Assembly: GCA_015064555.1 (NCBI GenBank)
Contig: SVRZ01000016.1
Span: forward strand, 1-51,143
From: Oscillospiraceae bacterium
Lineage (GTDB): Bacteria > Bacillota > Clostridia > Oscillospirales > CAG-272
Direction of reading: 5' to 3'
DNA length: 51,143 bases
Positions 10,422 to 51,143 of this stretch are shown piece after piece (the first letter of the stretch is position 1; every line of letters starts with the position of its first letter). The notes beneath the pieces are model-generated. The model did not search any database and had not been told where the DNA came from. It worked only from the letters and a program-made list of their open reading frames with translations. A program made the translations under genes and the position numbers.

Positions 10422-10946
10422 ATGGCAGAGGCACTGATATTCCTGTTTCTTTCACTGTCAGTCTTTCTGATATTGACCGAAATAGTCACTGTAGACCTTG
10501 TATACGGCATCAGCACCTCTGTTCAGATAAGCCTGAATGTATTCGCACTTAAATTCACAAAAAACAAGGAGCGGAATATAAAGCCGCAGCGCCGTAAGCG
10601 GCGCTTCCCTGCCCGCGGTGCCATATATCGCATCCTGAGCGCACTTATCCCGAGGAGCGAGATCCACGTGCGCGAGCTTTCGCTCGGCTTTAATGCGAGT
10701 GATCCCGCCTCATATGCACTGAGGCGCGGATTTTTGCTCCTCTTTATTTCACCCCTTCTGGCATTCGCAGAGAAAAATGCCGGAAAGTTTACTGCTGATA
10801 ATATAACACTCGGTGTTTCTGAGCATAATAATCACGACGTCAGAATGAGCATCTCGATCAGAATATCGCTTCTGGATATTATTATCGGGCTGTTATCTGC
10901 TCTTACGTCAGCAAGGAGAAGCTATGGCAGAAAACAAAATGAGTGA
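10422..10946 (+). CDS. DUF2953 protein (YtfI-like)
   Basis: Membrane-associated protein of unknown function, 174 residues. It has a hydrophobic N-terminal segment (ALIFLFLSLSVFLILTEIV), a short basic stretch (KPQRRKRRF), a soluble middle and a second hydrophobic segment near the end (LLDIIIGLLSAL). Assignment to DUF2953 rests on its place just before ytfJ, as ytfI precedes ytfJ in B. subtilis, and on this layout. The end overlaps the ytfJ start by 23 nt. Confidence 0.7.
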   Translation: MAEALIFLFLSLSVFLILTEIVTVDLVYGISTSVQISLNVFALKFTKNKERNIKPQRRKRRFPARGAIYRILSALIPRSEIHVRELSLGFNASDPASYALRRGFLLLFISPLLAFAEKNAGKFTADNITLGVSEHNNHDVRMSISIRISLLDIIIGLLSALTSARRSYGRKQNE

Positions 10947-30051: not shown

Positions 30052-31221
30052 TTATTTATTTATCGCGTTGATGTAATTATTTATTTCATTTGAGTATTTC
30101 TGGATTTGCAAAAGCCTATGTTTACACTCTTCCTTCTTCTTATATAGGCATGTGAGAGGTATTTTAAGATCATTTATAGATTTCTTAACAGTGCTCTTTG
30201 CCCCAAAAGCAGTCTTGCTTATTTTTTCCGATTCGGCTTGAAGCTCCGATATCTTGTCCTCGTGTTCTTTTATTTCTTCGTCTATGGAAGCAATTGAAGG
30301 CTCCTCTACCCTATCCATTATAGCTTTGAGAATTACCATCCGTGAAAATTCAAGGAGCCCTGTAAGTTCTTTGGCAATCTCTTTTTTCTTTGCTCCGTCC
30401 ATAAGTCCAAGATAGCTGTACTCCTTACAGAGCTTTTCCATTTTGTGCTGATTTTCAACGACTTTATTAAAGCGATTCTCTTCATTCGCGTTTTCCGGCG
30501 TGATCCAGATTGCACCTTTTACCATAATCTTCATCGGAACTCGCTCAGTGTGAGTTTGAGAAACGGTTTTTGTTACTGTCCTTTGTTCGGGGGATATTAA
30601 GTAATCGGATTGTCTTGATCCCGGACTATAATCCTTCCGGATAATATAATCACCGGTGTTTACCCGACTGGTTTCCTTGTGCGTCGTTACAAAGCTTTCG
30701 GTTGTGGATTCCTTATGGCTCACACTAACCTCTTGTCCCTGCAAAAGCTCATCGGATGTGTTTGCCAAAATAAATTTTATAGTTTCTACAAGTTTTCTTT
30801 CCTTGTTATTCGTTGCTTCACAGATGCTTGAACTGTAGAATACGGGAGCGTAATTTTTGCCATCAGGTGACTTTACTAATTTCACGTAAGTGACATAGTC
30901 CTCGGGATAATGCCACATTAGATCTGTTTTAGTATTTGTCACCCACCAAGGATCAGAAAAAACTTGACGCATGCTGGAATTGCGTGAATTTTCAATATTA
31001 GCACTTATCTTGTAATTTTCATCAATAGAATTGTCAGTAATATATTGATCTTTATGTGATTCGATTTCTTTTAGAATATAGTGACTAACATAAAGATGCA
31101 TATATTCCCAAATTGAAATATCGCTGTAATCATAGTCATTAACAGTCATAACTACTTCATGACCTGTAATAGTGGATTTTACACTACGCTTAAAGCGTAT
31201 CATGAGGTTTTTGATATTCAT
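30052..31221 (-). CDS. Hypothetical coiled-coil protein downstream of a structured RNA
   Basis: I do not recognise a family for these 389 residues. The protein looks soluble, with no signal peptide or membrane segment. The first half has mixed strands and helices with aromatic patches (DPWWVTNTKTDLMWHYPED). A Ser/Thr/His-rich middle (HKESTTESFVTTHKETS) is followed by TERVPMKIMVKGAIWITP. The last 110 residues are a Lys/Glu-rich helical and coiled-coil region starting near EYSYLGLMDGAKKKEIAKEL. AAGGAG precedes the ATG. The gene is more AT-rich than the operon next to it, which suggests transfer. A pseudoknotted RNA with its own promoter and terminator lies directly upstream and controls or accompanies it. 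Confidence 0.75.
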   Translation of the reverse strand: MNIKNLMIRFKRSVKSTITGHEVVMTVNDYDYSDISIWEYMHLYVSHYILKEIESHKDQYITDNSIDENYKISANIENSRNSSMRQVFSDPWWVTNTKTDLMWHYPEDYVTYVKLVKSPDGKNYAPVFYSSSICEATNNKERKLVETIKFILANTSDELLQGQEVSVSHKESTTESFVTTHKETSRVNTGDYIIRKDYSPGSRQSDYLISPEQRTVTKTVSQTHTERVPMKIMVKGAIWITPENANEENRFNKVVENQHKMEKLCKEYSYLGLMDGAKKKEIAKELTGLLEFSRMVILKAIMDRVEEPSIASIDEEIKEHEDKISELQAESEKISKTAFGAKSTVKKSINDLKIPLTCLYKKKEECKHRLLQIQKYSNEINNYINAINK

Positions 31222-31260
31222 AAAATCTTCTCCTTATACTAAATATTTCTCGGTTAAAAA

Positions 31261-31447
31261 CAAAAAGTGCGCGGCATAAAGCCACGCACCGAAAAACGCT
31301 GCTCCATGCCGCGACGCAAACTTTTTAACACTACCATATAAAAGGATAAGCATACAAAAAGGGAGCATACATTTTTGCCAAAAAGGAAAAAAGGTATACT
31401 TATCCCATGTTTATCATGGTAGTGTGGTGTTATTCAGTTTACGTCGC
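31261..31447 (-). ncRNA. Structured pseudoknot RNA A (same class as RNA B at 38.9 kb)
   Basis: About 187 nt, from the predicted +1 to a terminator T-run. Helices read on the minus strand: P1 GCGACGTAAAC with GTTTGCGTCGC (11 bp, 31437-31447 and 31311-31321); P2 ACACTACCAT with ATGGTAGTGT (31416-31425 and 31328-31337); P3 GGATAAGTATAC with GTATGCTTATCC (31394-31405 and 31344-31355). The apical loop has CCTTTTT and TTGGCAAAAATG. Its AAAAATG...GCTCC pairs with GGAGCAGCGTTTTT (31292-31305) outside P1, giving a pseudoknot. RNA B has the same fold with other helix sequences but shares the loop and GCGTTTTTCGGTGCG. No known riboswitch signature was recognised. Confidence 0.75.
31267..31289 (-). terminator. 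Terminator of RNA A, with a competing antiterminator pairing
   Basis: GTGCGTGGC-tttat-GCCGCGCAC (9 bp with one wobble) followed by TTTTTGTTTTT ends RNA A about 40 nt before the ATG. An upstream CGCGGCAT (31307-31314) can pair over 8 bp with ATGCCGCG of the terminator and shares bases with P1, so termination could depend on the fold. Confidence 0.75.
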
Positions 31448-31453
31448 AACAAC

Positions 31454-31482
31454 AGTATATCATACTTTTTCCAATTTGTAAA
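31454..31482 (-). promoter_or_regulatory. Promoter of RNA A and the 30-kb orphan gene
   Basis: TTTACA, 17 nt, TATACT, with TGA before the -10 (extended). The +1 at about 31447 coincides with the first base of P1. Confidence 0.8.
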
Positions 31483-31674
31483 GAGAGTATTTGAAATTTT
31501 ATACCTATTGAATTATTTTCGAATAAAATTAAGGACGAAAACCCGTTATCTTCGAGTCGCCGTCCTACTGCATTATACCTAATCCGTCAGACAATTTCTG
31601 CCGCCTTCCCAAAATAGAAAGCTTATTTGATCAATACGCCCGAGCCTTACCGAAACTTGATAAGTATAACGCGC

Positions 31675-32301
31675 TCAAAGCTTGAGCGCATTCAACTCGG
31701 CAAGAATATTTTCAGGTCTGTGCGCGTCGAAACGCGTGTATTTTCCGCGTGTTCCTACTTCGAGTATCTTTCCGGGATGATAATATCCAAGCAGTCGCGG
31801 CGGCAGATGCGTAACAACATCGTCAATATTCCGGATAACGGTGAAATTTTTGCATTTTTCCGCTATGGCACGGCTTTTTTTACCGAAGAATACTCTCGGC
31901 GCACCGAATCCGTAGCCAAAGCAACCTGCAATCAGATCGGGGCGTACCGTGAGCGCATATTCGTGGCATAGAGCGGCAAGCGCGCCGCCGTGCGAATAAC
32001 CTACGGTTATAATTTTTGCTATTCCCCCGTCCAAAAGATATGAAGCTACCATCGGCTCAACAGCTCGCCATACGCGCAAAAAGCCCTTATGGCAAAAGAG
32101 CATTCCACCGCCTATACGCTTATGGGGCACAGGAAGGAAATCAAAATTATTCACCCAATCCTCAACACCCCTTGAGCATTGAAGATAAATATAAAGGGTC
32201 TCACCCTCTTTTTCAATAAAATAATCGGCCGACTCCGAAATATGGATATAGTCAGCCGATATACATTTTTCAAATAGCTCGTGCAAACATTTCATAGTCA
32301 T
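31675..32301 (-). CDS. Lipase class 3 family protein (alpha/beta hydrolase)
   Basis: Cytosolic protein of 208 residues with lipase-3 marks: HKGFLRVWRAV, the nucleophile elbow ITVGYSHGGALAALCHEY (Ser in GYSHG), GYGFGAPRVF, the acid region VIRNIDDVVTHLPP and a late His in GYYHPGKIL. There is no signal peptide, so its substrate is likely internal: a lipid, or an ester brought in by transport. The stop codon lies inside a GCGCTCAA/TTGAGCGC hairpin. It is followed upstream by another hydrolase gene on the same strand. Start may be 32301 or 32295. Confidence 0.8.
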   Translation of the reverse strand: MTMKCLHELFEKCISADYIHISESADYFIEKEGETLYIYLQCSRGVEDWVNNFDFLPVPHKRIGGGMLFCHKGFLRVWRAVEPMVASYLLDGGIAKIITVGYSHGGALAALCHEYALTVRPDLIAGCFGYGFGAPRVFFGKKSRAIAEKCKNFTVIRNIDDVVTHLPPRLLGYYHPGKILEVGTRGKYTRFDAHRPENILAELNALKL

Positions 32302-32378
32302 CCTCGCTTATTAAGTATCATAAATATGATATTCATACAGCGAAGATATGTTTACCGGTGACCGACTTTCGGTATGCC

Positions 32379-33314
32379 TCAGATGAATCTGTTAAACCAA
32401 TACAAAAGCTCGCGCCGCATGACCTCATTGTAGGTATGCCCCATACCTTCAAGAAGGTGAAGCTCTATGTAAGAGCCGGAGCGCTTCACAGATTCAACGT
32501 ACTCCTTTGCCATAACCGGATCGGTCACGGTATCCTCGGTTCCCTGCCATATTTTAATAGGACATGGCGGTATGACAACACGCTTACCCTCGGAGTTGAT
32601 GAACGAGCGCGTCTTGTACGGATTGAAGCCGATCGTCGTGTTCTCACACCATTCATCCTCTGCGAAGCGGTATACCTCAACGATGCGGTCGTGAGTGCTG
32701 GGATTATTTCCCTTACTCGCCCTTTTATCCCAGGTTCCGATGCAATAATGGCCGTCGATATCAACACCGTCTATATTAAGCCGCGGATAAAAAATTCCGA
32801 GCGCTAACGTAACCGAGGGATAGGTGTGAGCAAAATTGAGAGCGGTATGTCCTCCCATCGAGCCTCCCGCAATGAGCACGCGCTCGGAGAGATTGAAATG
32901 GGTTATCGCATATCTGTATGCCTTGTAAAGAGCGCATATATGCTCGGGACATCCCATAGTAAGCCCGTGTGGCATTGAGCCGTTTACGTCCAGGGCGGCA
33001 TAGCCTGCCTCAATGCAATCCTTAACCAATGGAATGCCGCCTATCGTATTATCGGCTTCCTTCACCTTACTGCCCGCACCGTGGCAGGAAAGAATGAGGG
33101 GTGTAGGCTCTCCGTCCTCTGTATAGCTCTCGGGAAGCGCGAGAACGCATTCGCACTCCTCCATTAGCTCCGCATCGAGAATCTCATTGGCAACAGAATC
33201 ACCAACGGGGCGGAATGCATTGAATTTTACCTTGAAAAATATAAACTCGCGCTCGGGAAAGCCGGGGAGCGGTTCGCGCTGCTTATTGTTGGGTATCACT
33301 CTTTTTCTTATCAA
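32379..33314 (-). CDS. Alpha/beta hydrolase (S9/esterase-like)
   Basis: 311-residue serine hydrolase: oxyanion region LILSCHGAGSKV, nucleophile GGSMGGHTALNFAH, acid Asp region IWQGTEDTVTD and catalytic His in MGHTYNEVM. There is no signal peptide. This layout is that of the prolyl oligopeptidase/acetyl-esterase families; in gut Clostridia such proteins often deacylate sugars. Position beside a second, larger hydrolase and a glycyl radical enzyme suggests one accessory catabolic region, but this gene is on the opposite strand. Confidence 0.8.
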   Translation of the reverse strand: MIRKRVIPNNKQREPLPGFPEREFIFFKVKFNAFRPVGDSVANEILDAELMEECECVLALPESYTEDGEPTPLILSCHGAGSKVKEADNTIGGIPLVKDCIEAGYAALDVNGSMPHGLTMGCPEHICALYKAYRYAITHFNLSERVLIAGGSMGGHTALNFAHTYPSVTLALGIFYPRLNIDGVDIDGHYCIGTWDKRASKGNNPSTHDRIVEVYRFAEDEWCENTTIGFNPYKTRSFINSEGKRVVIPPCPIKIWQGTEDTVTDPVMAKEYVESVKRSGSYIELHLLEGMGHTYNEVMRRELLYWFNRFI

Positions 33315-33426
33315 AGCTGATTTCTCCTTCCGATATCGGTATTTACAATATAATTTTACACCACTTATCTAACGGTGTCAATAGAAATATATTTTTTATA
33401 TTTGGCCACAAAATCCGATAAACGTC

Positions 33427-33455
33427 TTGTTATTCACCGAAAAATGTGCTACAAT
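33427..33455 (+). promoter_or_regulatory. Promoter of the 33.5-kb hydrolase
   Basis: TTGTTA, 17 nt (TTCACCGAAAAATGTGC), TACAAT. The spacer half next to the -10 closely matches those before the glycyl radical enzyme gene and RNA B. Confidence 0.75.
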
Positions 33456-33487
33456 CAGTATAACAAAAAAGTTAAAGGAAAAAAATT

Positions 33488-36181
33488 ATGCTACCCTTCA
33501 AAAAGAACCTTTCCGATTTTGTAGTATGCGACACGCTTCGTATTGAGGATGACCTCCATATTGGCATCCCATATGAGGTGACGCTGCTTTTCGATAAGAA
33601 AAACGGGGATATTATCCCGGGAATAGGCGGGACGCCTATAATTCTCTACGTAATAAACACTAATACCGAAAGAGTCGGTCAGGACGCGGATACCGAAATA
33701 ATCGGCGGTATGCTCCGACGCGGATATGCCGTGCTGGTAATCGATTATCTTTCGGAGGAAAAGGCATGCCCTCCCGCACTCGATTGGTCGATACAAAATA
33801 TCCGTCGCAAGGTCATGGGTGGTGATATCGACGGTATATTTACCCTGCCCGACAGCTCATACCCTGAGACCTTCGTTGTTCCTGCCGGATACGACGTATC
33901 ACTTTCTATGCCGTACTGGGCATTTGACAAGCACGGCGCGGACGGAATACTTGAAAAGATCACCGAGATCTGGAATAACGACTTCAGAGGTACAAAGGGC
34001 GATGTTCTAATAAAATGGTGCTATGCCGATGGCACCCTGAAGCCCCTCGCCAATGGACTTGACGGCACCGAGCCTATGCGCTACCGCAAGGATGGTACCG
34101 AATGTGAGAACGGAGAATATGCTTATATTAAGCATACGCTTGCAAGAGATATAACCGACTGCGTCAAGCCCGATGGAAGTCCTATAGATCTCAATCTCTA
34201 TATGCACGTCATCTATCCGAAAAGCCCCGGAAAACCCGTACCCGTTATGTGTCTTGCCGGCTCGACCGAGCATCTGGCATCAGGTGCGGCAACCCAGGAC
34301 AGACCTCAGCTGAACGGCGCTGCATTCCGCGGCTATGCCTGCGTTATGATAGATTACGGATATACACCAATGGCGCGCGCCGATCATTACGGCTATTTTG
34401 ACGGCTATCCGAAAAAGGGGTACGTTACCGGAGATAACGCGACCTATTCTATGAGCTTCTATAACGATAAAAGAATATTCTGTGCCGCAATGAGGTACAT
34501 AAGATACCTCGCTCTCAGCGAGCCCGAGCGCTATGTATTCGATACCGATGCCATTGGTATCTACGGAAATTCCAAGGGCTCATGGATGACCTTCCTTGGT
34601 GAAAAGGAGCCCGAGAAGCTTCCTTCAAAACGCATGCTCGCAGGTCATCACGATGAAACGAGATTCGATAACGGGCACACCGAAGCTTGTGGCACAATTC
34701 GCGGCGGCGAAGAACAGCCGTGGCAGTTTTTTGGAGATTTGAGAATAAAAAGCGAGGCAGAATTCATTTATTCAAGCTGCGGAGGACTTCACGATTCGAT
34801 AACCGATGGCCACTCGCCTATGTTTATTTCCTGCAACAGAACCGATTCAAGCTGCTATTCGACCTCTAATACAATGCTCGCAGCCTGCCGCGCGCATAAC
34901 GTGCCTTGCATGTGGGTGGACATTCCTCTGCCACACACTCTCGTTTACGGAAACGATCTTTTATTTAACACGGATACCTACTCGGCATTCTTCGCCTTCA
35001 CGGGCTATTATCTTCATCACGATTCCCCGCGCGCTCTTTGCGCGAGGGCCGATATCAGTGCCGCATCCTTTACTCTGAAGCTCCGATTTTCAGGCGGCAT
35101 ACCCGAGAGTGAGATGGCGAAGGTGAAGATTGCCGACAAAAACGGAAACGAGCTATGCGGCAAATGGCGCGGAGAGCTTGGAGGTATTGATTGGAGCTTT
35201 ACCCCATCGGATATCGCACCCAATACCGACTATATACTCACCGTTCCGGATTCCATACTTGGAGATAACGGAAAGGCACTTAGTGATAAATTCACTTACG
35301 CCTTCTCATCTCCCGCCTTTGAAAAAACGGCCGTTCCTATAGAAGAAAAGGCATCCGGAGAATTTCTTGCAGATGTTCCTCTTAATGCATCCACCGAGTA
35401 TAAGTATCTCGAATTCCTGTCCGAGGGCGGATGCGGCTTTGCAATATGTACAGAAGACGGCCAGATTCTTACACGGGTATTCACGAATGCCGACGGAAGA
35501 TGCTTGCTTCCCCTCCATCAGCTCTCGCCTCTTACATCGGGCAAGCTTCTTATCAAGCCTATCGGGGATAAATTCGATAGCAGCTCTACACGATATACGC
35601 CCTGCAAGAGGGCTATTATTGAAGATGGCAAAGCCCCCGACGGCACTCCTGCGATAGTAATCAAGGGCTTCGAATCGGTTACCGAACACCCGACCGAGGA
35701 ATTCTATTCCTATCCTGCAGCGGCAGTCAGGCTCGAAAACCTTCTTGGTGATACGCCTGTATCGGTATCGGATATCGGTCGCAGATTCAATATCCGCTTC
35801 AGGCTCTATGACACCTCGTCAAGATACGTAAACCTTGATCTCAGCCACGTCACCTCTCGTGAGAACAGTATAACCGATCACCGCCGCGGTCATATGAATC
35901 TTATTACTAAGGCAAACGAATGGATAGAAGCTTCAATAGACTATACCGTTTACGAGCCGATATATACCGATCTTTCGGCAGTGACTAAATCCATGACGGT
36001 TTCCACCTACGGAAGCGGAAATATTATGAATCCGCTTTATATTGCGGACGTACACGTCACCGAATATATCGGAGATGCGAAGGGCTTGAGCCTTTCTATT
36101 ATCACCGATACGGACAAAATATCCGCTCTTCCCGAAGGAAAGCTGGATATCGTGTGCGAAAAATCCCCCTGGCAAAAATAA
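33488..36181 (+). CDS. Large alpha/beta hydrolase with C-terminal beta domains
   Basis: 897-residue protein without signal peptide. The first 520 residues contain a hydrolase fold: VPVMCLAGSTEHL, GYACVMIDYGY, nucleophile elbow IGIYGNSKGSWMTFLG (Ser in GNSKG) and a possible His in WVDIPLPHTLVYG. An Ig-like domain follows (about 525-610), then a beta-rich half of unclear type. It resembles the acyl-esterase/peptidase S9 group but is longer; the function of its C-terminal half is not recognised. It is followed by a glycyl radical enzyme gene with its own promoter. Confidence 0.75.
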   Translation: MLPFKKNLSDFVVCDTLRIEDDLHIGIPYEVTLLFDKKNGDIIPGIGGTPIILYVINTNTERVGQDADTEIIGGMLRRGYAVLVIDYLSEEKACPPALDWSIQNIRRKVMGGDIDGIFTLPDSSYPETFVVPAGYDVSLSMPYWAFDKHGADGILEKITEIWNNDFRGTKGDVLIKWCYADGTLKPLANGLDGTEPMRYRKDGTECENGEYAYIKHTLARDITDCVKPDGSPIDLNLYMHVIYPKSPGKPVPVMCLAGSTEHLASGAATQDRPQLNGAAFRGYACVMIDYGYTPMARADHYGYFDGYPKKGYVTGDNATYSMSFYNDKRIFCAAMRYIRYLALSEPERYVFDTDAIGIYGNSKGSWMTFLGEKEPEKLPSKRMLAGHHDETRFDNGHTEACGTIRGGEEQPWQFFGDLRIKSEAEFIYSSCGGLHDSITDGHSPMFISCNRTDSSCYSTSNTMLAACRAHNVPCMWVDIPLPHTLVYGNDLLFNTDTYSAFFAFTGYYLHHDSPRALCARADISAASFTLKLRFSGGIPESEMAKVKIADKNGNELCGKWRGELGGIDWSFTPSDIAPNTDYILTVPDSILGDNGKALSDKFTYAFSSPAFEKTAVPIEEKASGEFLADVPLNASTEYKYLEFLSEGGCGFAICTEDGQILTRVFTNADGRCLLPLHQLSPLTSGKLLIKPIGDKFDSSSTRYTPCKRAIIEDGKAPDGTPAIVIKGFESVTEHPTEEFYSYPAAAVRLENLLGDTPVSVSDIGRRFNIRFRLYDTSSRYVNLDLSHVTSRENSITDHRRGHMNLITKANEWIEASIDYTVYEPIYTDLSAVTKSMTVSTYGSGNIMNPLYIADVHVTEYIGDAKGLSLSIITDTDKISALPEGKLDIVCEKSPWQK

Positions 36182-36364
36182 TATACCAAAACGGACGAGG
36201 CTCGGATCGGGCTTTGTCCGTTTTCTTCGGTATCTCACAGCTTTCTCGGTTATGTCCGAAATAATCGCGCACATTTGAATGATGCATAGCAGCGACAAAA
36301 AAGAACGGCATAATTGTCATTGATCAAAACTTTAAAACGGATATAATCTTTTTTGTGTAACATA

Positions 36365-36393
36365 TTTACAAATCCCGAAATGCGTGCTATAAT
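36365..36393 (+). promoter_or_regulatory. Promoter of the glycyl radical enzyme gene
   Basis: TTTACA, 17 nt (AATCCCGAAATGCGTGC), TATAAT with extended -10. About 65 bp upstream of the ATG, which has GAGGAG. Confidence 0.85.
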
Positions 36394-36439
36394 TGACTCA
36401 TAAGCCCTTTCATTTTAAATACAAAGAGGAGAACATGTT

Positions 36440-38602
36440 ATGCCTATATCTGAAAGAATGCAAATGATATTTGAGCGTTCAAGAGCGGTAGCAATCAATC
36501 CCCCGAGAAACACTTTTAATAGGGATATGCACTCCGCCGCGCTTGGTATATACAAGGATTTGCCGAAATGGGAAAAACAGGCGCGTTCTATGGCCTATGC
36601 AATTGTTAATCAGGAAATATTTATAGAGCCTTACGATAAGATCATCGGCAGAGTTTACTATGATAAAGAAATCGCACCCGAGGCATACGACAGTGACTTT
36701 GACTTCAATCAGCAGATGAAGAGAGATACGATTAAGAACGACCCGGAATATGCCGAGCTATGCGATTATCAGCTGGCAACGTGGGGTGCTCCCGGTCACA
36801 TAGCATGGGATTGGAATTTCCTTCTCAGACGTGGTACTGACGGCATTCGTGAAAGATGCGAGGCGGGACTGAATCGCCACCGGGGTGACGAAAAGGCTGA
36901 GCATTTTTATAAGGGCGTTCTTATAATGCTCGAAGCGATTGAGGCTTGGAATGACAAGCACGTTGAAAAGCTTATCGAAATGGGTAAAACCGAGGAAGCC
37001 GAAATATGCAAAAGAGTTCCCCGCCACCCCGCGAGGAATTTCCGCGAGGCATTGCAGTGCTTCTTTATGCAGTTTATTATTGTAATGAAGGAAAATCCCT
37101 ACGGCGGAAACAGCCCGGGCCGACTTGACTATTATCTCTGGCCTTACCTTGAGTCAGATCTTAAAAAAGGAATTATCACAATCGAAGAGGCAGAGGAGCT
37201 TTGCGAGGAGCTCTTCGTTCGTATAGACGAGCGCCTGTATCGCCGCGATACCTGGGGAGAGAGCGTAGTTCTCGGAGGCTCCTATCCTAACGGAGCATCT
37301 GCTGTCAATCCACTCACCTACGCTATGCTTCGTGCATATATGAAATACGATATCATTCATCCGCTTGTTTACGGACGTGTGCCCGCTAATCCGCCCAAGG
37401 AATATATCGATCTCCTTTCCGATTATGTTATAAACGGAAGAAATCGCGCGCAGGTTATCTCTGACGAGTCGATCATCAGGGCTCTCGTCAAAAACGGCGT
37501 TACCGAAACCGATGCCACCGACTATTATTGCGGCGGCTGTATGGAGGTCGGTGTCCAAGGAAGAACGAGTGACTTTCTCTTTACAGGATGGCAGAATATC
37601 GCAAAAATGCTTGAGCTTTGTATGACGGGTGGCTATTGTCTCAAGAACAAGAAATACCTTGATTTCGTAAAGCCCGCACCGCTAACGGCATTTGACAATT
37701 TTGAGGACTTCTATGCATCCTTTATTTCCTACGTTGAAAAGTGGCTCATAAGAAATCTTGCCTACCAGGATAAGCTCAGCGAGCACGTTGAAGAGTTCCG
37801 TCCCTCGTATCTTCTTTCCTCGATGATCGACGACTGTCTTACGAGAGGAAGAAATATGCACGGCGGCGGAGCAAGATACCACGATTACGGCTCGGCGATC
37901 GTTGCCGTTCCCAATTCCGCAGACTCGCTGACGGCAATTAAAAGAGCCGTCTTCGAGGACAAGATCTGCACCGCCGAAGAGCTTCTCAGAGCATTAGATG
38001 CAAACTTTGAGGGCTATGAAAAGCTCCACGCAAAGCTGCTCGCCCTCCCCAAGTACGGTCAGGAGGACGCGGAGGCGGACGCTATGTGCTCCCGACTTAC
38101 GGTCGACCTCAATCGCATTTACAGCTCATATATCAATCGCTTTGGCGGTAACGGCAAGCTCGTTATGCTCACTTTTGTCTGGGCACCCGTCGCAGGCAGC
38201 CTTTTAGGCGCTACCCCCGACGGAAGAAAGGCAGGCGTACCGATAGCTCATTCGATAACGCCGCAATCTATGGCTATGACAAAGGGTATCACGGTAGCAA
38301 TGAATTCCTGCACGACGCTTCCCTTCGAGCTCTTTAATGGCGGTGCATCTACGATGTGGGATCTTGATCCCTCGTTTGTAACACCAGAGGTAGTTTCCTC
38401 GCTTATGACTACGTTCTTCGAGCAAGGCGGTCAGATTTTCCAGGGGAATATGACAGACGTTGATGAGCTCCGGGAAGCGCTGAAATCCCCCGATCGGTAT
38501 AATCACCTTATAGTACGTGTCGGCGGCTACTCCGCAAGATTCGTTAACCTTAACCGCGCCCTTCAGGAAGAAATAATAAATAGATTCAGGCATAGCCGCT
38601 AA
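36440..38602 (+). CDS. Glycyl radical enzyme (PFL-like; CxE eliminase type)
   Basis: Oxygen-sensitive radical enzyme of 720 residues. The glycyl radical site RVGGYSARF is at the C-terminus (Gly696). The thiyl Cys loop is YYCGGCMEVG, with Cys367 and Glu369 in the GCxE pattern of dehydratases and lyases rather than the CC pair of true pyruvate formate-lyase. Cys364 is an extra neighbour. Both PFL and Gly-radical domains are complete. The substrate cannot be read from sequence; choline, glycerol, isethionate or hydroxyproline enzymes are possible relatives. No radical SAM activase (CxxxCxxC activating enzyme) is near, so it must be activated from elsewhere. Three hydrolases precede it. Confidence 0.92.
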   Translation: MPISERMQMIFERSRAVAINPPRNTFNRDMHSAALGIYKDLPKWEKQARSMAYAIVNQEIFIEPYDKIIGRVYYDKEIAPEAYDSDFDFNQQMKRDTIKNDPEYAELCDYQLATWGAPGHIAWDWNFLLRRGTDGIRERCEAGLNRHRGDEKAEHFYKGVLIMLEAIEAWNDKHVEKLIEMGKTEEAEICKRVPRHPARNFREALQCFFMQFIIVMKENPYGGNSPGRLDYYLWPYLESDLKKGIITIEEAEELCEELFVRIDERLYRRDTWGESVVLGGSYPNGASAVNPLTYAMLRAYMKYDIIHPLVYGRVPANPPKEYIDLLSDYVINGRNRAQVISDESIIRALVKNGVTETDATDYYCGGCMEVGVQGRTSDFLFTGWQNIAKMLELCMTGGYCLKNKKYLDFVKPAPLTAFDNFEDFYASFISYVEKWLIRNLAYQDKLSEHVEEFRPSYLLSSMIDDCLTRGRNMHGGGARYHDYGSAIVAVPNSADSLTAIKRAVFEDKICTAEELLRALDANFEGYEKLHAKLLALPKYGQEDAEADAMCSRLTVDLNRIYSSYINRFGGNGKLVMLTFVWAPVAGSLLGATPDGRKAGVPIAHSITPQSMAMTKGITVAMNSCTTLPFELFNGGASTMWDLDPSFVTPEVVSSLMTTFFEQGGQIFQGNMTDVDELREALKSPDRYNHLIVRVGGYSARFVNLNRALQEEIINRFRHSR

Positions 38603-38625
38603 AGGATCTTTTCCCTGCGGCAATA

Positions 38626-38815
38626 AAAAACAAAGAAAAGCGACATAAAAAAGTAAAACGGTTTGATCCCCCGGCAAAAGTTCAGGGGCTGTGTCATTCA
38701 CGTATAACCGAATATAAGCACCGAGGTGTTGTCCAAAGCAATACCTCGGTGCTTATTTTTGCTGTGCTTTGAGAGAATTATGGTTGAAAACCTACGCTTT
38801 TCGTCATTACTTCAT
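38626..38815 (+). repeat. Direct repeat R1 (left flank of the LRR/SIR2-like cassette)
   Basis: A 190-bp non-coding repeat, about 93% identical by eye to R2 (42405-42596). Inside it a 14-bp stem (ATAAGCACCGAGGT with ACCTCGGTGCTTAT) around a 15-nt loop is followed by TTTTT, so it also terminates transcription from the glycyl radical enzyme gene. It has no ORF or terminal inverted repeats. Confidence 0.85.
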
Positions 38816-38848
38816 TTCGGTTCAATGTAATATTTATATTAAAATATC

Positions 38849-38877
38849 TTTACAAATACCGGAAAATGTGCTAAAAT
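38849..38877 (+). promoter_or_regulatory. Promoter of RNA B and the LRR/SIR2-like genes
   Basis: TTTACA, 17 nt (AATACCGGAAAATGTGC), TAAAAT with extended -10. The predicted +1 is within a base or two of the start of P1 of RNA B. Confidence 0.85.
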
Positions 38878-38882
38878 AATTA

Positions 38883-39088
38883 CGCTACACAATTCAATAA
38901 ACAATTCTTAGGGGAGTTTTATCTTTATAGGGGATATTATGCCCTTTTTCGTGTTTTCCTTTTGAATTTGGTAAAAACGCCAACTTCTCTCGGAAAATAC
39001 GGAATTACTTCCCTATTGTTGAGAATTGTGTAGCGACAATTGGAGTTGGCGTTTTTCGGTGCGGTGACTTCGGTTGCCGCACTTTTTA
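38883..39088 (+). ncRNA. Structured pseudoknot RNA B (same class as RNA A at 31.3 kb)
   Basis: About 206 nt. P1 CGCTACACAATTC with GAATTGTGTAGCG (13 bp, 38883-38895 and 39023-39035); P2 AGGGGAGT with ACTTCCCT (38910-38917 and 39007-39014); P3 CGTGTTTTCC with GGAAAATACG (38950-38959 and 38992-39001). The apical loop holds AAAAACGCCAACT (38973-38985), which pairs perfectly over 13 bp with AGTTGGCGTTTTT (39044-39056) downstream of P1: a pseudoknot. Order, loop motif TTGGYAAAAAYG and GCGTTTTTCGGTGCG are shared with RNA A, while helix sequences differ. The terminator follows at once. Confidence 0.8.
39059..39087 (+). terminator. Terminator of RNA B with UUCG tetraloop
   Basis: GTGCGGTGAC-ttcg-GTTGCCGCAC (10 bp, two wobbles) then TTTTTATTTTT, 27 nt before the LRR gene start. 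The same place and similar stem as the terminator of RNA A. Downstream expression needs read-through. Confidence 0.85.
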
Positions 39089-39114
39089 TTTTTCGAGAAG
39101 GAGACTAAATTTGC

Positions 39115-41271
39115 ATGGCATTAACGAATTATAGCAAAGTAATTGAGCTTGTTAAGCAAAATTATGATAAACTGCAAAGAGAAAATCTATCCTCAAAATC
39201 CGGTTATGAAAAGGTAGTCCTCTATATGAAGGATATACTCCGGAATGCAGGTGTACCTGAAAATTCACAAAAGGAATATTTATCTCGCGAAACGATCAGT
39301 AAATGCATTAAGGATGCCGCAAATTCTATAAATAGAGCACATGAAAATGCGGAAAGATCAAGACTAGCTGCAATAAAAAACGAAGAGCGCATTGAAGCCG
39401 CAAAATGCTCAATTATAGTTCCACCTAAAGGAAAAGCCAAAACTGCCGATTTTTGTCGTATAGCAATTGAATATTATAAATTTCAAATTGAGGCTTGCGA
39501 TATTGCAACATCAATCATAAAGGGCAATTGTTCGAGTCAAAATGCCCTATTTAATCATACAAGTAATACATGGGCATATCATGGCGGAATAGCCAGTGCT
39601 ATTGCAGGACCTGCCGCCGGAATAATGGCGGCGGCAGAAGCAAAGCGTGAAGATGATGCAAGAAATCAATTAAATGCGCAAATCAGAACACTTAATACAC
39701 AAATTGCAAGTGAAAAACTGATAGAAATTATGCAAGTCCAAAAAGACTATAAAGAATCTTTAGTGTCTTGGACAGAAAATTTAGAAGCTACCAGATATCA
39801 GCTTGAAGAAAAGTGTGATCAAAATAAATTATTACGCGCAATGAATCCACAGGTTTTCAAATATACCACATCTGAAACAGGTACTGTAACTCTTGAAATT
39901 GATTTTTCAAGGGATCATAACTGCAAAATATACGGTGAAAAGGAAGCATACATCGATGGAAGCATAGTGGTGCAATTCTCAAAAGATGGAAAAGTATACG
40001 GAAGTACGCTTTGCTATCTTCCTTTCGGAGGTACGGACAGTCACAGAAAAATTATTTGCATAAATACAGAATTACCGAATTTAAAAAAATCCCAAGGTTG
40101 TTATGATATTAAGTTTCTGCCGGGTGATCTTTACCTAGTAGAATCGCTCCCCGAAATTACCACCCGCTATTATAGTGATTATTTTTATACATCACTAAAC
40201 AACTGGTGTTACGAAAAGGCCGAAAAGGAAAAAGCCGCAAAAGAAGCCGCACTTCAAGCTCAGGAAGCAAAGGAACGCCTTAAGAAAAAAAGAAAGGCAC
40301 TCTTAAAAAAATTCATGCCATTAATAGTCACATTATCAACGACACTCGTGGCTTCAATAGTGTTACTTATAGTCTTTTTCCCTAATTTAAAATACAATTC
40401 TGCCGTTAGAAAATATAACAAACAGGAATATAGCGAAGCTGCTTCAATATTTAGGTCGCTCGGCGATTTCAAAGACTCATATGATATGAAGATCAAATCA
40501 TATATGAATGCACAGGACTATCCAAGTGTAATTTCCTGTGGCATCACAGATCTGGTAATTCCGGATGGTATAACCGAAATTTCACACCGACAATTTGCTG
40601 CTACCTTCGATGATGGTCTTTACTCGAGAATTACAAGCATAGTAATCCCGGATAGTGTTACAAGCATTGGAAATCAAGCTTTTTATAACTGTAATTCACT
40701 CAAACGCATAGTAATTCCCGACAGTGTTACGAAAATTGGCACCAATGCATTCGATTCTTGCGATTCACTTACCGAAGTAATCATTGGAAAAAATGTAACA
40801 ACTATAGGTGAAGGTGCATTCTACAATTGCAATAATCTGACGCAAGTAACTTTGGTAAATGGTATGACATCTATTCCGGACAACGCACTCAAGAACTGCG
40901 AAAGCTTAAAAAATGTTATAATACCTGATAGCATAACAAGCATTGGCAATTATGCGTTCTACGGTTGCACAAGCCTTACAAGCATCACGATTCCTGATAG
41001 TGTAACAAGCATCGGCCGATTTGCGTTTCGTGGTTGCGAAAGCCTTACAAGCATAACTATCCCTGACAGTGTAACAAGCATTCGCGAATATGCGTTCAGT
41101 GATTGTAGCAATTTAACAGAAATTATATTTGAAAATCCTAACGGATGGTCGGTTATGCGATATGATGGAGTCTTAAACGTAGATTCAAACGAACTATCCA
41201 ACTCATCAACTGCATGTAATTACTTATGTATAGAATTTGCAGATCGTAAATGGCATCGCACCGAAACTTAA
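39115..41271 (+). CDS. Membrane-anchored LRR_5 (BspA-like) protein with large N-terminal domain
   Basis: 718 residues. A helical N-terminal half includes a Gly/Ala-rich hydrophobic stretch (about 156-176), then a beta-rich part (250-350) and a charged Lys/Glu helix (367-400). One membrane segment lies at about 402-423. After it comes a TPR-like piece (YNKQEYSEAASIFRSLGDFK) common in Clostridia surface proteins. Leucine-rich LRR_5 repeats follow, of the type ITIPDSVTSIGRFAFRGC, running from about 475 to 695. Low GC and AT-rich codons set it apart from the core genes. It follows RNA B and its terminator and precedes the SIR2-like gene by 35 nt. Which face of the membrane the repeats take is unclear. 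Confidence 0.8.
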   Translation: MALTNYSKVIELVKQNYDKLQRENLSSKSGYEKVVLYMKDILRNAGVPENSQKEYLSRETISKCIKDAANSINRAHENAERSRLAAIKNEERIEAAKCSIIVPPKGKAKTADFCRIAIEYYKFQIEACDIATSIIKGNCSSQNALFNHTSNTWAYHGGIASAIAGPAAGIMAAAEAKREDDARNQLNAQIRTLNTQIASEKLIEIMQVQKDYKESLVSWTENLEATRYQLEEKCDQNKLLRAMNPQVFKYTTSETGTVTLEIDFSRDHNCKIYGEKEAYIDGSIVVQFSKDGKVYGSTLCYLPFGGTDSHRKIICINTELPNLKKSQGCYDIKFLPGDLYLVESLPEITTRYYSDYFYTSLNNWCYEKAEKEKAAKEAALQAQEAKERLKKKRKALLKKFMPLIVTLSTTLVASIVLLIVFFPNLKYNSAVRKYNKQEYSEAASIFRSLGDFKDSYDMKIKSYMNAQDYPSVISCGITDLVIPDGITEISHRQFAATFDDGLYSRITSIVIPDSVTSIGNQAFYNCNSLKRIVIPDSVTKIGTNAFDSCDSLTEVIIGKNVTTIGEGAFYNCNNLTQVTLVNGMTSIPDNALKNCESLKNVIIPDSITSIGNYAFYGCTSLTSITIPDSVTSIGRFAFRGCESLTSITIPDSVTSIREYAFSDCSNLTEIIFENPNGWSVMRYDGVLNVDSNELSNSSTACNYLCIEFADRKWHRTET

Positions 41272-41306
41272 CAAAAATTATAATCAAAAAAGAAAGGACA
41301 CTAAAA

Positions 41307-42212
41307 ATGGCAAGAAAAACGAAAATACTCCTTCTCGGCAACGGTATATTGCAAGCCTTTGGCGGTGAATCATGGAATGATTTTCTATCAAGCATCTGCA
41401 AAAGGTCTGATCTACCGAGTCCGGATAAGATCAAATGTCCCGAACCGTTAAAAGCAATACTTCTTACAGGAGATAGAGTTGATATTGCTATGAAGGAAAA
41501 ATGCGCCGATATATTAAATCGGGCGCAAATCAGCGAAAAACTTGCCATGTTTCTAAAAACAATCCTTTCGTTAGGCTTTGATCATATTTTCACTACCAAC
41601 TATACTTATGAGTTAGAGCAAGCCGCCGTTTATCCTGAAAAATTAAGCGAATATAAGCTCAAGAAAATGGCGGCTTCCACCACCGGTGTCATTGATAAAA
41701 AATATCTTTTACATACCTACAACAAAGTTATTTGCAATGGGATTGAAAACAAAATCTGGCACGTTCATGGAGAATCCCGCAAGCCGGACAGCACTATACT
41801 CGGTCATTATTACTATGGCAATTCCCTCTTTAAAATCAAGGATGCACTAGATAAAATAAGGATAACAAATTCTATCGACGAGGATCCCCAAACCTGGGCT
41901 GAAGCCTTTATATTCGGTGATATATACTGTCTTGGATTCGGATATGGACTTTGTGAATTTGACCTTTGGTGGCTACTCAATAGAAAAGCACGAGAAAAGT
42001 TCAATGCAGGAAAGCTCTGCTTCTATGAGCCGTACAACCCGGAGCAATGGGAAAAAATTGATCTCATGAAGCTTATGAAAACAACTGCAGGTACCCCTTT
42101 GGTTAATATCATAGATCTGGGTTATAACTCAAAGCGCAATATGGATTGGGAAAAATTTTATACAGAAGCCATTGAGGACTTAAAGCAACGTATTAATCTC
42201 GAATATAATTAA
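41307..42212 (+). CDS. SIR2-like (NAD-binding fold) protein
   Basis: 301 residues with motifs in the SIR2_2 order: LLLGNGILQAF (nucleotide loop), IFTTNYTYELE (the usual TTNYD, here TTNYT, so the Asp is replaced), IWHVHGESRKP (HxHG with the likely catalytic His154) and CLGFGYGLCEFDLWWLL (the GxSxxDxD-like end). Such domains act as NADases in several anti-phage systems; other members are unresolved. The ATG at 41307 has AGAAAGGAC upstream; a longer ORF from 41250 starts inside the LRR gene. It forms an operon with the LRR gene between the direct repeats. Whether the missing Asp abolishes activity is unknown. Confidence 0.75.
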   Translation: MARKTKILLLGNGILQAFGGESWNDFLSSICKRSDLPSPDKIKCPEPLKAILLTGDRVDIAMKEKCADILNRAQISEKLAMFLKTILSLGFDHIFTTNYTYELEQAAVYPEKLSEYKLKKMAASTTGVIDKKYLLHTYNKVICNGIENKIWHVHGESRKPDSTILGHYYYGNSLFKIKDALDKIRITNSIDEDPQTWAEAFIFGDIYCLGFGYGLCEFDLWWLLNRKAREKFNAGKLCFYEPYNPEQWEKIDLMKLMKTTAGTPLVNIIDLGYNSKRNMDWEKFYTEAIEDLKQRINLEYN

Positions 42213-42404: not shown

Positions 42405-42596
42405 AAAAACAAAGAAAAGCGACATAAAAAAGTAAAACGGTCTGATCCCCCCCGGCAAAAGTTCAGGGGCTGAATCATTCACTTATAACCAAATAAAAGC
42501 ACCGAGGTGTTGTCCAAAGCAATACCTCGGTGCTTATTTTTGCTGTGCTTTGAGAGAATTATAGTTGAAAACCTACGATTTTCGTCATTACTTCAT
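42405..42596 (+). repeat. Direct repeat R2 (right flank of the LRR/SIR2-like cassette)
   Basis: Same orientation as R1, with the same inner terminator-like hairpin (GCACCGAGGT/ACCTCGGTGC). Direct repeats around a 3.6-kb low-GC segment could have arisen by, or allow, gain or loss through homologous recombination. Confidence 0.85.
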
Positions 42597-50845: not shown

Positions 50846-51042
50846 TTTTCTTTAAAGAAACAAAAAAGGCTTCGCTATTGCGAAACCCACAAATCCAAAC
50901 TCTCACCGAAGTGAGTATATTAAGCATCTAACATAAAGTCAGATGTAATTTGAGCTAAAATGCTCATTAAAAACCGAACAAACCATACGAAACGAAGCTC
51001 AATCTGTTTTACTGAACTCTATTGAATAAGCAATAGCAGTTC

Positions 51043-51143
51043 AAGCCCTCGGTCAATTAGTATCGCTCAACTGAATACATTACTGCACTTACATCTGCGA
51101 CCTATCAAACTCCTAGTCTAGAAGCGACCTTACTCGTTTAAAA
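51043..51143 (-). rRNA. rrl: 23S rRNA, 3' end only
   Basis: Read on the minus strand, the last 101 bases hold the known end of 23S: ACGAGTAAGGTC, TAGACTA in a closing helix, GTTTGATAGGTCGCAGATG, TAAGTGCAGTAATG and GATACTAATTGACCGAGGG. The gene continues past the window. The exact 3' end is estimated from the family's GGGCTTGA. No 5S rRNA or tRNA was found in the 1.1 kb downstream. Confidence 0.92.

Follow-up and report, generated by a model that had tools for sequence, protein, structure and literature searches.

What are the two folded RNAs that stand ahead of unrelated genes in contig SVRZ01000016.1 of an Oscillospiraceae bacterium (order Oscillospirales, assembly GCA_015064555.1), and could they govern the genes behind them? 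The window analysed here is the whole stretch of 51,143 nucleotides (nt), and the initial annotation, made from its letters, had described RNA A on the minus strand and RNA B on the plus strand as a candidate new class of pseudoknotted RNA. We have confirmed that both are members of a structured RNA family without a match in Rfam, and it is well supported that most copies of the family RNA form the 5' leader of a same-strand gene. On balance, we consider it probable that these RNAs form a new class of cis-acting leader, in which the RNA fold beside an intrinsic terminator would control readthrough into accessory genes, whereby we infer both the logic of the switch and the signal to which it would respond.

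RNA A lies at 31261..31449 of the minus strand and RNA B at 38883..39088 of the plus strand. Two covariance models were used to recognise them and their relatives, namely R1, built from 28 long forms with RNA A and RNA B both among them, and R2, built from 43 short forms. RNA B scored 173.9 bits with R1, whereas RNA A, an outlier of the long form, scored 102.6 bits with R1 and 82.6 bits with R2. R1 places the two RNAs at 31449-31260 and 38882-39089, in agreement with the initial annotation (31447-31261 and 38883-39088). Their folding energies have z values of -7.2 (RNA A) and -9.0 (RNA B), and none of 200 dinucleotide shuffles was as good. The initial annotation had also claimed extended -10 promoters and terminators 27-40 nt before open reading frames (ORFs), and consensus scans, which leave the +1 positions predicted, found promoter-like sites with TG before the -10 at 31454..31482 (minus, TTTACA-17-TATACT) for RNA A and at 38849..38877 (plus, TTTACA-17-TAAAAT) for RNA B, as well as terminator-like hairpins with T tracts at 31261..31290 (minus) and 39058..39088 (plus), the ORFs beginning about 40 nt after the end of RNA A and 27 nt after the end of RNA B.

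Between promoter and terminator, the outer stem P1 of RNA A joins a 5' arm at 31436..31447 to a 3' arm at 31322-31311 (minus), judging from the predicted fold and from covariation in the family; that of RNA B, from the predicted fold, joins 38883..38895 to 39023-39035 (plus). The pairing of a loop with a downstream strand, already noticed in the initial annotation, can be read from the sequence of both RNAs and is in keeping with the pairing in the family. In RNA A the loop strand X' (AAAAATGTATGCTCC, 31362..31376, minus) pairs with the downstream strand X'' (GGAGCAGCGTTTTT, 31292..31305, minus) through 14 pairs with two wobbles and one bulge (31376-31362 with 31305-31292), and in RNA B X' (AAAAACGCCAACTTC, 38973..38987, plus) pairs with X'' (GGAGTTGGCGTTTTT, 39042..39056, plus) through 15 pairs with one wobble (38973-38987 with 39042-39056). 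X'' ends 1 base before the terminator stem in the family, RNA A and RNA B included. RNA B also has a strand X (GAATTTGG, 38964..38971, plus) which could form a local hairpin with the 3' part of X' at 7 of 8 positions, a hairpin weakly supported in long forms.

The two RNAs have a 15-base word in common that occurs exactly seven times in this genome, and a pattern combining the word with a terminator matched in 16 of 59 genomes, with 0 matches for the reversed control. The sequences selected by the pattern share the promoter, the outer stem, the loop and the downstream strand. In a scan of named genomes the pattern was found in at least 117 stretches, and the 80 titles among the matches listed all belong to metagenome-assembled or uncultured Clostridia, such as Oscillospiraceae, Christensenella sp. 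UBA3770 and Candidatus Woodwardibium; four viral stretches carry the same pattern. The family RNA is about 130-250 nt long, and 120 units from genome and viral stretches could be divided into 47 with a short core (130-180 nt), 56 longer ones and 17 that were not cleanly parsed, RNA A and RNA B being nearer to the long form than to the short form.

R1 matched in 70 of 117 relatives and 18 of 39 genera. The genome of the window itself gave 15 R1 hits, one of them antisense of another and thus about 14 places including RNA A and RNA B, among which the place on contig C43 seems truncated. The roughly 12 further places in the genome go beyond the initial annotation, as do a hairpin that may compete with the pseudoknot and the direct repeats bracketing the RNA B cassette. 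R2 matched in 83 of 245 genomes of the order (51 of 126 genera), and in a sample of the phylum its single match among 398 genomes was that of the window; this sample serves as a specificity control, and the part of the sample shown also contains five other genomes of the order. As 7 candidates were scored per genome in the phylum sample and 12 in the order sample, copies can be missed in both, and within these sampling limits the family is confined to one order.

Searches of Rfam 15 at E values up to 10 brought RNA A and RNA B nowhere near any gathering score, the only match in the window that reached one being the end of a 23S rRNA gene at the window edge (51037-51143). At 19 loci with other members, Rfam searched at E values up to 0.5 gave no match on the family RNAs, and no description of the family was recognised among the papers listed by searches of the open-access literature, subscription papers and preprints lying outside its coverage. 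The proposal of a new RNA class is supported by the missing Rfam match together with the homologues, bearing compensatory changes, that the covariance models found. A family that reaches 15 matches in one genome and extends over a third of the sampled genomes of its order is large, yet it has escaped Rfam 15. As a separate observation, Gut-1 RNA was found near family members at three places, L021 2130-2199, L021 2226-2309 and L006 1013-1087, with one match above the gathering score (51.7 bits) and two below it (37.5 and 32.3 bits).

The initial annotation had taken helices that keep pairing while their sequence changes as the mark of selected structure, and the homologues bear this out for P1 and for the pseudoknot. 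P1 was paired in 97.0% of alignment cells in the long forms and in 100% in the short forms, with 8 of 12 and 6 of 10 pairs, respectively, changed on both sides. The pseudoknot is 14-15 base pairs (bp) long across the family. Since shuffling of whole structures does not test single helices, helices were also shuffled one by one (n = 500), and the pseudoknot alone was paired in 95.0% of cells in the long forms, where 21 double-change cells compare with 6.0 in shuffles, and in 93.8% in the short forms, where 13 compare with 4.3; its covariation score was reached by 0 of 500 shuffles in long and short forms alike. Chance is excluded, since compensatory changes accompany this structure through 28 long forms, among them RNA A and RNA B, and through 43 short forms.

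The same pairing is found in copies that do not bear the selecting pattern. The models gave 231 hits in 199 chosen sources, which do not cover all loci, and 210 copies remained after removal of duplicates, 56 of them lacking the exact pattern. In the 23 long copies among these the pseudoknot was paired at 97.3% against 91.0% with swapped partners, and in the 33 short copies at 94.3% against 91.2%. Furthermore, in 173 of 191 copies the upstream RNA paired better with the copy's own X'' than, on average, with ten swapped X''. Three conserved tracts of five U or A residues had suggested a U-A-U triple helix in the pseudoknot, an idea which we rejected, as in the short forms the upstream U tract forms antiparallel pairs with the A tract. 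One divergent copy in the genome of the window (G000:C42:43519-43673) has no A5/U5 tracts, and another complementary pair apparently replaces X' and X'' there.

In most copies a promoter-like site precedes the family RNA and a gene follows it closely. A -10 element with TG that matched at 5 or more of its 6 positions stood just before P1 in 141 of 203 copies, compared with 11 of 1015 shuffled upstream stretches; with a looser promoter test the counts were 195 of 203 and 460 of 1015. A ribosome-binding site (RBS) and an ORF on the same strand followed within 260 nt in 180 of 205 unique copies, with a median gap of 24 nt, compared with 57 of 197 when reading away from the promoter and 194 of 615 at random positions. 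This count covers copies with at least 300 nt downstream, which left out 5 of the 210, and keeps a few weak antisense hits (such as L223 1550-1680, plus strand) as copies without a gene. In 138 of the 180 copies with a gene the gap was 45 nt or less, which hardly leaves room for another promoter, so that in most copies the gene would be reached only by readthrough of the terminator and its expression would need it.

The same data bear on a rival explanation, namely that the family is one of stand-alone small RNAs acting in trans, with a constitutive terminator, the RNA itself as the product and the downstream genes as leaky passengers. Such RNAs would have their own promoter-like site, as is the case here, and their terminators, predicted to be strong (median -16.7 kcal/mol), have no competing pairing; the high number of copies in single genomes, the tandem units without genes (L129, G074:C82 and G599:C48) and the 25 of 205 copies without a gene by the RBS and ORF test would also suit this explanation. 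However, an RNA acting in trans does not need a gene placed so closely and so often behind it, and we regard the explanation as unlikely.

The genes that follow the RNAs are mostly unrelated to one another. Clustering of 166 downstream proteins (164 of the 180, with starts within 130 nt, and 2 from short stretches) gave 87 clusters, the largest with 36 members by single linkage, and lipobox-like starts were present in 66 of the 180 downstream proteins, a count without a control set. Among 86 of the 87 cluster representatives, the 1809-residue protein of L129 being left out, Pfam recognised 54 families. The 25 families shown include zinc ribbons (up to 5 members) and several domains of unknown function, and an ABC ATPase, an AMP-binding enzyme, an M23 peptidase and the host-cell-surface lipoprotein Ltp with single members. 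PADLOC recognised 11 families, each in 1 or 2 of the 86 representatives. A few matches of cargo proteins were strong (PDC-S30, 4.2e-94; PDC-S29, 6.5e-74; mad3, 9.1e-23), and a defence function of the cargo was rejected as a general explanation, no general enrichment being seen among the 86 representatives. Neither gene A nor gene B, which follow RNA A and RNA B in the window, had a convincing PADLOC match. The downstream genes share no evident pathway.

This diversity speaks to the type III toxin-antitoxin loci, whose layout of promoter, pseudoknot RNA, terminator and ORF is the same as that of the family and in which the RNA would be an antitoxin, followed by a leaky terminator and an RNase toxin. 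The initial annotation had found the downstream genes a poor fit to such loci, and the many clusters uphold this, as the family has no common toxin and no type III toxin appeared among the 25 Pfam families shown of the 54. Short tandem RNA repeats define a type III antitoxin, and RNA A and RNA B have no such repeats: a check for direct repeats found none of 12 nt or more in RNA B and, in RNA A, one 13-nt pair of 85% identity whose members lie 94 nt apart. We consider a type III locus hardly credible here.

Nor was a conserved gene partner found for the family, a candidate explanation that we rejected. The protein of gene A was found in 1 of 147 genomes, that of the window, and at one orthologous locus the gene is preceded by promoter and RNA in L127 and by an ordinary promoter-like site in L260 and L261. 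Together with the leaderless ABC-transporter homologues discussed below, these cases are the reason why leaders and genes seem to combine freely. The unit of promoter, RNA and terminator is modular, in that a gene which it fronts at one locus is without it at orthologous ones, and it also occurs in phage DNA.

How could such a leader act? The mechanism that we propose starts from the layout of the unit, in which the folded RNA stands between its promoter and an intrinsic terminator, and the RBS and start of an accessory gene come about 24 nt further on. The loop strand X' (AAAAACGC...UCC) pairs with X'', 1 base before the terminator, to form the pseudoknot, as covariation shows. In the short forms covariation also shows two alternatives, X' pairing with X, which lies upstream, and X pairing with a third strand, Y; in the long forms, to which RNA A and RNA B are nearer, the X:X' alternative is weaker. 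A pseudoknot forming at the mouth of RNA polymerase while the terminator is being synthesised might then help or hinder termination, and a common signal, be it a small molecule, a protein or stress, might bias the pseudoknot and bring unrelated cargo under joint control. Strand exchange, clearest in the short forms, would thus be the input, and the nascent fold next to the terminator would set readthrough, in a manner resembling HK022 putRNA. If this is true, an RNA fold can govern an intrinsic terminator with which it has no strand in common, and newly acquired genes are brought under common RNA control.

The short forms provide most of the evidence for the exchange of strands. X:X' was paired there in 84.7% of cells, with 51 double-change cells against 25.0 in shuffles, and X:Y in 77.1%, with 50 against 26.4, the score of either helix being reached by 0 of 500 shuffles. 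The rival pairings of X' have similar duplex energies (medians of -14.8 and -16.5 kcal/mol, loop costs not counted), and in 32 of 43 short forms the predicted fold has X' in a hairpin before X'' exists.

Several points weigh against a switch of this kind. As regards the statistics, X'' and the terminator are fixed in the pattern used to select the aligned sequences, and the shuffles ignore the relatedness of the sequences. The number of double-changed pairs, as distinct from cells, was matched by 5 of 500 shuffles for the long pseudoknot and by 98 of 500 for the short one, and by 145 of 500 for the short X:X', 110 of 500 for the short X:Y and 252 of 500 for the long X:X'. In the long forms, X:X' was paired in 74.6% of cells, its score being reached by 34 and its percentage by 37 of 500 shuffles, and the alternative hairpin is only suggestive there; by duplex energies that leave out loop costs the pseudoknot was stronger than this hairpin in 28 of 28. 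Since X:X' is weak and the pseudoknot stronger throughout the long forms, a strand switch in RNA A and RNA B is uncertain. As regards the terminator, its arms showed no co-evolving upstream partner, own arms pairing better than swapped ones in 95 of 192 and 96 of 192 copies (these tests cover 192 of the 210). As they have no competing upstream pairing, a classic terminator/antiterminator switch is absent, and the step that would couple the pseudoknot to termination is a guess. As regards the genes, some copies have none behind them, and several genomes contain tandem units that have a promoter-like site apiece but no intervening gene, which is odd for a pure leader. R2, the one model applied here, found the leader at 0 of 30 loci with ABC-transporter homologues (out of 54 matching genomes), and the association of the leader with a given gene is therefore not conserved; at a few loci the same ABC gene does carry the leader.

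The riboswitch-type leader suggested in the initial annotation is a plausible candidate only, there being no alternative pairing that co-evolves with the terminator arms. The family resembles the fluoride (crcB) and other pseudoknotted transcriptional riboswitches in having a pseudoknotted 5' leader RNA directly before an intrinsic terminator, and in strand exchange, which in the family is well supported in the short forms only. In fluoride riboswitches the sequence that forms the pseudoknot doubles as the base of the terminator hairpin (PMC11077080); in contrast, X'' of the family stops 1 base short of the terminator stem, and a sensor fold sharing a strand with terminator or antiterminator, as in transcriptional riboswitches, did not emerge from the terminator-arm test of the 192 copies. 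Moreover, the genes of the family, which share no evident pathway, offer no ligand candidate.

A second rival explanation dispenses with the signal. The RNA might bind RNA polymerase and confer resistance to terminators without any ligand, as put or EAR elements do, and would then let the cargo be read while sensing nothing. The EAR of Bacillus is a cis-acting antitermination RNA located after a promoter and before terminators, a position shared by putRNA and by the family, in which a compact pseudoknot follows straight after the promoter and stands straight before an intrinsic terminator. According to PMC9378689, HK022 putRNA needs no dedicated protein and is positioned where the RNA exit channel opens, putL lying just downstream of its promoter; it is about 70 nt long with two stem-loops, whereas the family RNA is two to three times longer, and no Rfam family matches it. 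The weak competing hairpin of the long forms, RNA A and RNA B among them, would suit a constitutive element, which fits these forms about as well as the leader switch that we favour, whereas the competing pairings retained in the short forms would be superfluous in a constitutive antiterminator. The lack of a dedicated protein would also agree with the put type: PF02357 (NusG) matched in 87 of 115 genomes, with a single match in 81 of these, including the genome of the window (82% complete), so that there is no sign of a paralogue of the LoaP or RfaH type among them and a dedicated NusG paralogue behind the family is unlikely. For the family as a whole we judge a put-like element to be quite improbable.

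The surroundings of some copies hint at mobility. RNA B and its two genes sit between direct repeats of about 190 bp, at 38626..38815 (left) and 42405..42596 (right) on the plus strand, which are 95-98% identical (D1 95%, D2 98%) and have a terminator hairpin; parts of the repeat recur on contig C42 of the same genome. A viral contig with tail and lysis genes (L195) carries a family RNA at 10499-10641, immediately behind an endolysin gene and ahead of one for a lipoprotein, three further viral contigs carry one common RNA, one of them with a weak match to a head protein, and an unverified record of a human-faecal phage carries a family RNA at 139.5 bits. A search of plasmids with one short-form query gave no match. 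The site directly after a phage endolysin gene is the usual place of lysogenic-conversion cargo, and prophage moron cassettes are accessory cargo with their own promoter. The family resembles morons in this and in the place of the L195 copy, and differs from them in that its terminator precedes the gene and follows a conserved folded RNA, and in the small number of viral stretches with the pattern compared with those in genomes.

Tandem riboswitches, like the tandem units of the family, place two or three successive copies ahead of a gene, and in those described in PMC9481103 readthrough of the first leads into the second; the inspected tandem copies of the family differ in each having its own promoter-like site. 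At L049 554-1325 (G074:C82) there are three tandem units of promoter, RNA and terminator, and copies 2 and 3 are identical at 89 of 90 bases upstream and at 95 of 136 positions in the interior, as if the interior had been exchanged or diversified. The tandem of L170 shows the reverse, with 75 of 80 interior positions and 59 of 97 positions of the upstream flanks identical, and interior divergence as a general trait of tandem copies was rejected on comparison of the two. At L092 3701-4227 two tandem units are separated by a stub ORF of six codons after the first, as if a duplicated cargo gene had decayed and the RNA had been kept.

The direct repeats, the phage copies and the G074 tandem could also be explained if the conserved object were a DNA recombination site, comparable to the folded DNA of attC, which spreads cassettes and for which RNA folding is secondary. 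However, a recombination site needs neither a promoter nor a pseudoknot across the stem nor a terminator 1 base after X'', all of which belong to transcription, and the L170 tandem is the opposite case. We therefore consider such a site very improbable.

Returning to the cis-acting leader, its broadest form would be a general-purpose RNA gate of one order, a portable module set before unrelated accessory and phage cargo, with readthrough governed by strand exchange between a hairpin and a pseudoknot that abuts the terminator without overlapping it. We put this forward tentatively, as a possibility that is itself doubtful. If it is true, transcription is controlled here in a way unlike that of classical attenuators or of the known processive antitermination RNAs, and the orphan genes of uncultured gut Clostridia contain a hidden regulon. 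Orphan lipoproteins, surface proteins and phage cargo genes are linked by the family into one candidate regulon.

As to the genes beside the two RNAs, gene A (30052..31221, minus) encodes 389 amino acids with no Pfam family over the cut-off and no PADLOC match, and gene B (39115..41271, plus) a protein of 718 amino acids with leucine-rich repeats of the BspA type (LRR_5, E 2.5e-67). The second gene of the RNA B cassette (41250..42212, plus; 320 amino acids) has a weak similarity to AbiH and SIR2_2, below the cut-off. Beside the cassette lies a gene for a glycyl radical enzyme, through which a site empty of the cassette was sought; it matched in only 4 of 92 genomes, and the three besides that of the window have 48-52% identity.

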